From assembly GCA_025617745.1 (NCBI GenBank), contig CM046870.1:8186303-8250302 (forward strand): 64,000 bases of DNA. The letters run 5' to 3'. Shown piece after piece: positions 14,199 to 23,749 of the stretch. A program made the translations under genes and the position numbers. The notes under the pieces were generated by a model. That model was not told where the DNA came from. It did not search any database and worked only from the letters and a program-made list of their open reading frames with translations. Every line of letters starts with the position of its first letter. Within the stretch, counting starts at the first letter, position 1. The DNA comes from Heliocidaris erythrogramma. Lineage: Eukaryota; Echinodermata; Echinoidea; Camarodonta; Echinometridae.

Positions 14199-14532
14199 CT
14201 GAGGTGAAGAGAATCTGTGCTATGTTTGCAAAACAGTGGGTCCCCGCCGCCCCCAGAAAACGAATCCGAATGCACCGACTTCGTTGACTGGGTTGACGAC
14301 GTTGGAAGGTCGTTGTTGGAGGGGACTTCCTTCAAGCTCAGGAGCGGCATGGAGCTCTCGGGTTCTGTGGTGGTCGACGAGGACCCCGCACCTTGGCTGA
14401 CCCCGTTAAGAGCGCCCTCTTGGCTGTCCTTCTCGCTCCTTTCTCCATCTGCCTCTGGCGGGGCGGGCTGGTTGGCACTGTCCCGCTGGCGGTAGATCTG
14501 CGGAAGCTTGAGCCGGAAAGTCCGATGGTTGT
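14199..14532 (-). CDS. ERG: ERG-type K+ channel, linker exon with TFRLKLP motif
   Basis: This exon encodes part of the cytoplasmic linker between the PAS domain and S1. Seen: minus-strand acceptor tctctctgacag/ACAACC, donor CCTCAG/gtacat, 334 nt, entering in phase 1 and leaving in phase 2. The start reads NNHRTFRLKLPQIYRQRDSA. TFRLKLP is the conserved motif just after PAS in vertebrate ERG (KTFRLKLP). The rest is low-complexity acidic and Ser/Thr/Pro-rich (APPEADGERSEKD; SSSTTTEPESS; SGGGGDPLFCKHSTDSLHLR), as expected for this poorly conserved region. Base composition is much richer in G+C than the flanking intron, another sign of coding. The open frame continues a short way into the downstream intron without family resemblance. 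The plus-strand frames 14217-14495 and 14393-14647 are shadows. Confidence 0.9.
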
Positions 14533-21737: not shown

Positions 21738-21797
21738 CTTGGTTTTGACTTTGGGAATTCATAGAGCGCTGAAGAGACATTGCTATTTTGAGCTTGT
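21738..21797 (-). CDS. ERG: 60-nt in-frame exon of the ERG gene (probably alternative)
   Basis: Seen: on the minus strand a strong acceptor with pyrimidine tract (catttccttacttctag) is followed by 60 nt and a consensus donor CAAG/gtaaga. The length is a multiple of three, and both ends are phase 1, exactly the phase linking the PAS exon (23570-23749) to the next exon (14199-14532). Including or skipping it therefore keeps frame. It would insert about 20 residues, KLKIAMSLQRSMNSQSQNQ, a basic then Ser/Gln-rich peptide, directly after the PAS domain and before the conserved TFRLKLP motif. I know of no counterpart in vertebrate ERG, so a cassette exon is an inference. The same DNA lies in a longer open frame (21526-21828), but the splice sites make the short exon the better model. 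RNA-seq junctions would decide it. Confidence 0.72.
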
Positions 21798-21829
21798 CTA
21801 GAAGTAAGGAAATGGGGGGATGAAGCATG

Positions 21830-23530
21830 ACAACGTCAATTAATTTCCGAAATCAGGTTTTTCAATTATTCTCTTCCCATTTCGTACAAACTGTGTTCAA
21901 GTTATTCAATTTCAAGGACTATGCAGACATTTGTCTAACACAACCATTTGAAATTGTCTTTATTTCTTATTCTTTTTACACACAGATCCTGTTTATTTAA
22001 TGATGTTAATCATTCGATTCCTGAGACTCAGCCCATAGCAAATAATGACTTTCTTTCTATTTTAATAGTTATGATTAAGACACAGATTATTTATCGTATT
22101 CACTGAAAAAAAAACGTATTATCACTTAAAACTAAAAACGGGACATTATAATGTGCATTTTATTTTCAAAATAACTGATTATGACAACTTTTATCACCAA
22201 GACAAATCCAACACACGAACACCAACAATTTTAAATCAGTCTTGTTAGTATTCCTGTAGATAACTTTAAAAATGTAAAACATGATAATGGTCTTTAATTG
22301 TTATCACTGATGAACTGAACTGAAAGCACATTTCAAAATTAGAAAATATGTAACTCAAGTCTGTACAACAGAATTCACAAAAATTCAAAATAGAATACAA
22401 GTAAAATAACAACCAGTTGAACTTGGGAGGAACATCATACTGAAATAAAAATAGATGTTAGAACATACAGCCATTAAATAACTAAGAGTCGTAACAAATC
22501 ATATCACTCAGAACATGCCAAAAAACGGCGCATTCTCTTTACAAATGAGTTCTGAAATACATGTTGGATCTAAAAAAAAATTAAAAGGGTATTTCCCGCT
22601 TAAAAAGTCTTTTTGACTTATTTACATGTATGTACATGTTGGTCATAAACTAAGCCTTTGAATGTTTAAAATTTATATCCTTAACATTTCCTACTCTAGA
22701 TTTTAGTACTTATAAAATAAAAACGTATCCAAAATATTTTTCCATGATTAATCACTTGCTGTTTATACAATTTACATCATCTTTTTGACAATGATTAACA
22801 ACTTCACCAGCAATATATTTATTGCCATTGTGATCTTACCCATTCTCACAACAGGTAAACTTAATCCTTATATTTTTTGGGAAGAATGAGAGAGAGACTA
22901 CAAAATGTTTTAAAAATTACAAACTTACAAATATTTTATTTAAAAACATAATAACATGTAATGTATGAATTCAAATGGCGGTGTCGAATATCATGAAGTA
23001 CTTTACAGTTGCTAGTACACTTGAAGAAACTTTGTTTTGAATGTGAAATAGAAGAAATATTGAAATATCTGAATAAGAGGAAGTGTAACCCAAACAAATC
23101 ATTATTTGCTGCTTCAAAGGGGACCAGTCAGCTAAAAACATGTTTCTACCTATAATATTAACTTCCCAAAAACTTTACCTGGCGTTCTTTAGGTTAACAG
23201 TAAAGGAGTATCAAAATATACAGGAAAATATGTTTTAAATATGCATGTATGGAACCCAAGTCAGATTTTATATATCTTGTATCAGGGATCGTGCATGTAA
23301 TCTCAACATCTCTAGAATACATGAATGTCTAAGGCTTTGATTTCACATTTGTGTTCACAAAAATATATCAAAATTTGATAATAAATTACTGTTTTACAAA
23401 GAAAGCTTTGGAATTAAAGTTAAAAGTGGTCCAATTCGACAGGGTTGGTAAGGAGTCTGCAATGTATAAAGTACCCTGGGGTAATAAATTCAAAAGAAAA
23501 TAAATTAGTTTGTACATAATAATGAAAGTT
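21830..23530. other. ERG intron, no further exon seen
   Basis: The 1.77 kb intron between the PAS exon and the 60-nt exon. AT-rich, with no repeat family recognised. Confidence 0.5.
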
Positions 23531-23569: not shown

Positions 23570-23749
23570 TCCTCCCTCTCCTCCATTTATAGCCAACGCT
23601 GTTTTCAGCCGCGGCCGGCGTGGCGGTTTCTTCTGGCGTGCTTGCATACTTGTTTTCGCTGATGTCCTCAAAGTTGAGGATACACATGATGATCTCCTCG
23701 TTCTCATTCTTGACGGGAGCGACCAAAACACTACAAAGGAACGATGTTC
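23570..23749 (-). CDS. ERG: ERG-type K+ channel, exon for end of PAS domain
   Basis: This exon encodes the C-terminal strands of the N-terminal PAS (eag) domain of an ERG-class voltage-gated potassium channel, which in the family packs on the cytoplasmic gate and slows deactivation. Seen: on the minus strand an acceptor (ccacccacag) precedes GAACATCG, and the exon reads TSFLCSVLVAPVKNENEE followed by IIMCILNFEDISENKY. This closely parallels vertebrate ERG, where PVKNEDG and IMFILNFE occur at the same place. The donor is A/GTAAGTAG. Length is 180 nt; it begins needing one upstream base and ends with one base over, and the vertebrate exon 3 is of similar size and begins in the same phase. The tail (TPEETATPAAAENS, then KWRRGR) is divergent linker. 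The plus-strand ORFs here are shadows. Which vertebrate paralogue it matches best cannot be decided; an invertebrate single-copy ERG is likely. Confidence 0.9.

Follow-up and report, generated by a model that had tools for sequence, protein, structure and literature searches.

A segment of 60 nt in a long intron of an ERG channel gene of Heliocidaris erythrogramma (21738..21797, minus strand) may be an alternative cassette exon placed where the PAS domain passes into the N-linker, a reading whose chance we put, from the sequence, just under even. The splice evidence agrees with an exon and the codons look intronic; the exon is plausible and unproven. Positions refer to the window, i.e., the whole analysed stretch of 64,000 nucleotides (C18:8186303-8250302 in a 1.06-Gb genome of 26 contigs), with negative values or values above 64,000 for features beyond its ends. 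Inclusion would add the peptide NKLKIAMSLQRSMNSQSQNQ to a channel that is complete without it.

The host gene and its linker exons

The ERG gene was laid out on the minus strand by tblastn with an hERG sequence as query against 264 kb around the window. Eleven exons without the candidate join to 2,784 nt, that is 928 codons with 0 stops, reading from M1 to the CNBHD and including the PAS domain, the six-segment core, the SVGFGN filter and the CNBHD; the join ends at the CNBHD exons. In a search of the PDB with exon 3, hERG PAS structures ranked best. The joined exons and the PAS structure matches thus bear out the original assignment to ERG (Kv11). Exon 1 (119762-119687, 25 codons) and the PAS exon 2 (114895-114665) lie upstream of the window on the minus strand. 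They are followed by the last PAS exon, exon 3 (23749-23570, 180 nt, phase 1 to phase 1), by exon 4 (14532-14199, 334 nt), which begins the N-linker with (N)NHRTFRLKLP, and by exon 4b (12821-12619, 203 nt), a linker exon obtained in a phase-aware scan. Its SIRRASSLETTDSI resembles SVRRASSADDIEAM of hERG. Exon 5 (8746-8517, 230 nt) ends the N-linker (SDSDLARYR...NRVTQ), the S1-S3 exon lies at -50505 to -50972, and the pore, S6 and two CNBHD exons continue beyond it down to -58942, all on the minus strand. The candidate lies in the intron of 9,037 nt between exons 3 and 4. A genome search with exon 4 gave one match and thus showed no close paralogue or retrocopy from which a joined form might be read.

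Several further features of the gene were observed, all on the minus strand. Two donor sites were seen for exon 4. The inner one, at 14392, is strong (9.6 bits), has phase 1 and would lead in frame into exon 5; the outer one, at 14199, is weaker (6.0 bits), has phase 2 and leads in frame into exon 4b. By their sequence the two donors possibly offer a second splice choice within the same linker. An exon 4 that stops at the short donor 14392 was dropped as the principal form, since the phase left by the long donor 14199 is restored by exon 4b. The first part of exon 5, together with its acceptor and the preceding intron sequence (8857-8702), is duplicated about 4.6 kb upstream at 13478-13323 (91 % identity over 156 nt), and the exon end with its donor (8551-8485) is repeated just downstream at 8429-8362 with a second donor-like site (85 % identity over 68 nt). 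The intron between exons 2 and 3, both encoding PAS, is about 91 kb long and extends from 23750 past the window end. It contains an open stretch of 222 codons with VYKYHCRCEAVYVGRTSQRLADRIKQHVP at 38342-37674, which looks like the GIY-YIG portion of a retroelement of the Penelope-like kind.

Boundaries, phase and predicted product of the candidate

The acceptor at 21797 reads ...ccttacttctag/ACAAGC and ends in cttacttctag, the donor at 21738 reads ...ACCAAG/gtaaga and is near consensus. Exon 3 leaves one base at its end at 23570 (phase 1), and exon 4 starts at 14532 after the acceptor ...ctgacag/ACAACC. The skipped form reads ...KWRRGRNNHRTFRLKLP, the included form ...KWRRGRNKLKIAMSLQRSMNSQSQNQDNHRTFRLKLP with 20 additional residues, the frame kept and no stop. 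The segment 21797-21738 therefore combines an acceptor and a donor with an open frame, a length that is a multiple of three and matching phase; the predicted 60 nt, both splice sites and phase 1 on both sides were confirmed by the sequence and by the exon joining. The Ser/Gln-rich, basic insert of about 20 residues foreseen at the PAS/TFRLKLP junction was also recovered: the 20 residues comprise 4 Ser, 4 Gln and 3 Asn and carry a charge of +3, of which a net gain of +2 is left as the junction Asn becomes Asp on inclusion.

Upstream of the acceptor lies an AG-free zone of 73 nt with a pyrimidine tract (21798..21870, minus strand). It holds a branch-point-like TTGAC (A at 21836) and a TTAAT, both as consensus matches; the real exon 4 acceptor has no branch-site match across the same range. 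The splice-regulator motifs GCATG, CTCTCT, ACTAAC and CTAAC did not occur within 22100-21500. An origin of the segment from a repeat was rejected, since no likeness was found within 264 kb and a query of 501 bp gave one match in the genome (very common words skipped).

Splice signals and codons weighed against chance

The main rival of a cassette exon is a chance pseudoexon: intron sequence that happens to match the splice consensus and to be open for 20 codons, while exon 3 joins exon 4 and no product arises. Splice sites were scored with metazoan matrices, not trained on this genome. On this scale the acceptor reaches 10.2 bits (rank 28 of 3,735 AGs on the minus strand of the window) and the donor 10.4 bits (rank 10 of 3,657 GTs), and their sum of 20.6 exceeds that of nine of the ten constitutive ERG exons for which acceptor and donor scores were obtained (range 10.5 to 21.9). 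Among the seven in-phase candidates of its own intron the segment ranks first; the runner-up (14.6) combines the same acceptor with a weaker donor, and the third, with another acceptor, reaches 11.2, which is 9.4 bits below the segment. A scan of this type also served as a positive control and ranked exon 4b first among the right-phase candidates between exons 4 and 5. The length of the AG-free zone played no part in picking the candidate; it is 73 nt, and the zones of ten real ERG acceptors span 35-63 nt. Among AGs with strong scores the median zone is 32 nt on one strand and 36 nt on the other, and 6 % and 12 % of them reach 73 nt.

Equal splice sums do arise elsewhere. In the nine other ERG introns (166.9 kb, each scanned in its own phase) two candidates reach 20.6, with zones of 29 and 32 nt. 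Three of 28 antisense blocks of 9 kb hold an open phase-1 candidate with an equal or better sum; when a zone of at least 47 nt is required as well, none of the 28 does. In a separate listing, three antisense candidates of 24-200 nt have zones of 10, 19 and 30 nt. Across 528 kb of strand, six further open phase-1 candidates reach 20.6, in addition to the short-donor form of exon 4, so that sense and antisense sequences behave alike, and without the constraint of own phase the sense pair -12559 to -12735 is equally good (sum 24.2, zone 47). The candidate is thus unusual for one intron, yet it could have arisen by chance. For score and AG-free zone together we judge the expected chance count to be about 0.01-0.05 in the host intron and several times this value over the whole searched window of 64 kb. 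Chance is harder to dismiss because the original prediction had picked the segment from 64 kb, not from 9 kb.

The codon content is intron-like. With log-odds trained on 853 codons of this ERG gene, the insert scores -0.23 per codon, which is not coding-like, although a coding-like score is a usual and not a strictly defining trait of exons. A score this low was reached by only one of 137 left-out real windows of 20 codons (windows overlap), and a score this high by 26 % of 5,000 open intron stretches. The resulting likelihood ratio of about 0.10 is against an exon. The real exon 1, with 25 codons, also scores -0.22; the codon test is therefore hard on short exons, although its result still counts against the candidate, and the ratio may penalise a short, Ser/Gln-rich insert too strongly. 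The base composition points both ways. The T content is low (13/60), equally low in 3.0 % of 8,852 host-intron 60-mers, which favours an exon. The G content is low as well, 13 % versus 27-29 % in exons 3-5, and the GC content is reached by 19 % of the host-intron 60-mers, both of which count against one.

The intron-like codons, the signals of equal sum in antisense blocks and elsewhere, the search space of 64 kb and the complete ERG obtained by skipping speak for the chance pseudoexon; the low T content speaks against it, as does the AG-free zone, for with a real-like zone no match was found in the nine other in-phase introns and in the 28 antisense blocks. We regard the pseudoexon as a serious possibility, rather below an even chance. 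This weighting is a judgement: the prior that any one intron contains an unrecorded exon is low, and a splice likelihood ratio of the order of 10 in favour is set against a codon likelihood ratio of the order of 10 in the other direction. As the skipped form is already a stop-free ERG of 928 codons, the candidate could only be optional. An exon constitutive in every transcript is accordingly very improbable: its splice score would fit, being above nine of the ten scored constitutive exons, but its codon content differs from the other exons, and without it PAS already stands near TFRLKLP, the layout of ERG that is also found in hERG. It is improbable, too, that transcription starts upstream in the intron and that the segment serves a PAS-less, ERG1b-like subunit as its alternative first exon, with the donor joining exon 4. 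In-frame ATGs at 21780 (MSLQRSMNSQSQNQ) and 21762 precede the strong donor at 21738, and PAS-less ERGs arose repeatedly (PMC9428852, PMC9989356), among them ERG1b in mammals (PMC9428852) and forms in fly, worm and some cnidarians (PMC9989356). However, the start-codon contexts are ordinary, and a first exon has no need for the long AG-free zone and the strong, phase-correct acceptor, which argue for an internal exon over an alternative start.

The N-linker and a calmodulin lead

As a cassette exon, the candidate would yield ordinary ERG when skipped and, when included, a flexible, weakly basic, Ser/Gln/Asn-rich segment of 20 residues directly after PAS with the frame unchanged. The insert would be expected to lengthen and charge the tether from PAS to the remaining linker, and the altered tether may tune the coupling between PAS and CNBHD. 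The domain order of this ERG is shared with hERG1a (KCNH2); the insertion site corresponds to the human phase-1 intron that separates the PAS exons from the exon with TFRLKLP, and the insert would fall near hERG residue 158, inside the N-linker. No such insert is known to us in hERG. The original statement that no vertebrate equivalent is known agrees with the open-licence literature in so far as no such exon was found among the matches listed. ERG1b is a comparable isoform change in the ERG N-terminal region; it swaps PAS and linker for 36 unique residues (PMC9428852), whereas the candidate would keep PAS and add 20.

The hERG N-linker, residues 136-398, connects PAS to S1, and its role is described as not well understood (PMC9428852, PMC7515569). 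In channels lacking residues 141-350 and 871-1005 deactivation is slowed by an increase in the slow time constant, and a deletion of 138-373 is reported to move activation to negative voltages (PMC7580876). From these deletion effects, 20 residues added where the linker begins may be expected to alter gating modestly. The original prediction had called the site known to affect deactivation, which is only partly right: deactivation slows when 141-350 and 871-1005 are both removed (PMC7580876), the role of the linker is poorly understood (PMC9428852, PMC7515569), and an effect of the insert itself on deactivation is unproven.

A further lead comes from EAG channels. Calcium-calmodulin binds the EAG N-linker beside PAS, and hERG was not found associated with calmodulin (PMC7515569); to block the N-terminal calmodulin site of EAG, F151 and L154 are mutated (PMC11390113). 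With its position directly after PAS in the N-linker, the insert would occupy the place of the BD-N site of EAG1 (Kv10.1). The host's own EAG at C3:20235657 carries GVGRFAKLARTVTRSRS directly after a phase-1 acceptor, and the insert bears a weak likeness to it (KIAMSLQRS / KLARTVTRS). In EAG the BD-N segment is part of a larger exon, whereas the candidate would be a cassette, and the hydrophobic pair is absent from the insert, which has Lys at the position of F151 and Ile at that of L154. The likeness to the host EAG has P values of 0.005 against random ORFs and 0.012 against shuffles when register-anchored, 0.026 and 0.043 for the first 26 residues unanchored, and 0.06 and 0.48 for the full segment; the anchored test used a window length and an offset chosen after sight of the sequence, and the P values are uncorrected for several tests. 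With fly Eag, P was 0.02-0.03 unanchored and 0.03-0.09 anchored. No significant likeness was obtained with human EAG1 (P 0.28 against shuffles; anchored 0.16 against random ORFs and 0.35 against shuffles).

Inclusion would also join KWRRGR of exon 3 to NKLKIAMSLQRSM, a basic stretch with W1-L8-L14 spacing. This is the spacing of classic calmodulin targets. Of 172 pseudoexon peptides, 9.9 % show it, and 1.2 % (2/172) show it together with a charge of at least +3; the 172 peptides very probably include the insert, which meets the selection limits; the spacing, like the EAG likeness, was spotted by eye after the sequence had been seen. A calmodulin helix was rejected as an explanation on the hydrophobic moment: the included form has 0.50 and the skipped form 0.48, and 41 % of shuffled inserts do as well as the included form, which gives no support for such a helix. 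The junction peptide matched none of the 177,635 distinct PDB sequences searched (E up to 10). We treat the EAG-like sequence likeness as a weak lead. A calmodulin contact by the insert is possible, less likely than an effect on the tether. It is distinctly improbable that the exon acts as a splice switch, inclusion making an EAG-like calmodulin site and skipping removing it, which would set a calcium brake by tissue or stage.

The PAS domain gives ERG its slow closing. If the candidate exon is used, nature would have altered the tether of this domain in a frame-neutral way, which would allow a direct test of the poorly understood N-linker and of calcium-calmodulin control of ERG, as in EAG. 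If it is unused, it would be a warning that near-perfect, phase-matched splice signals occur in long introns.
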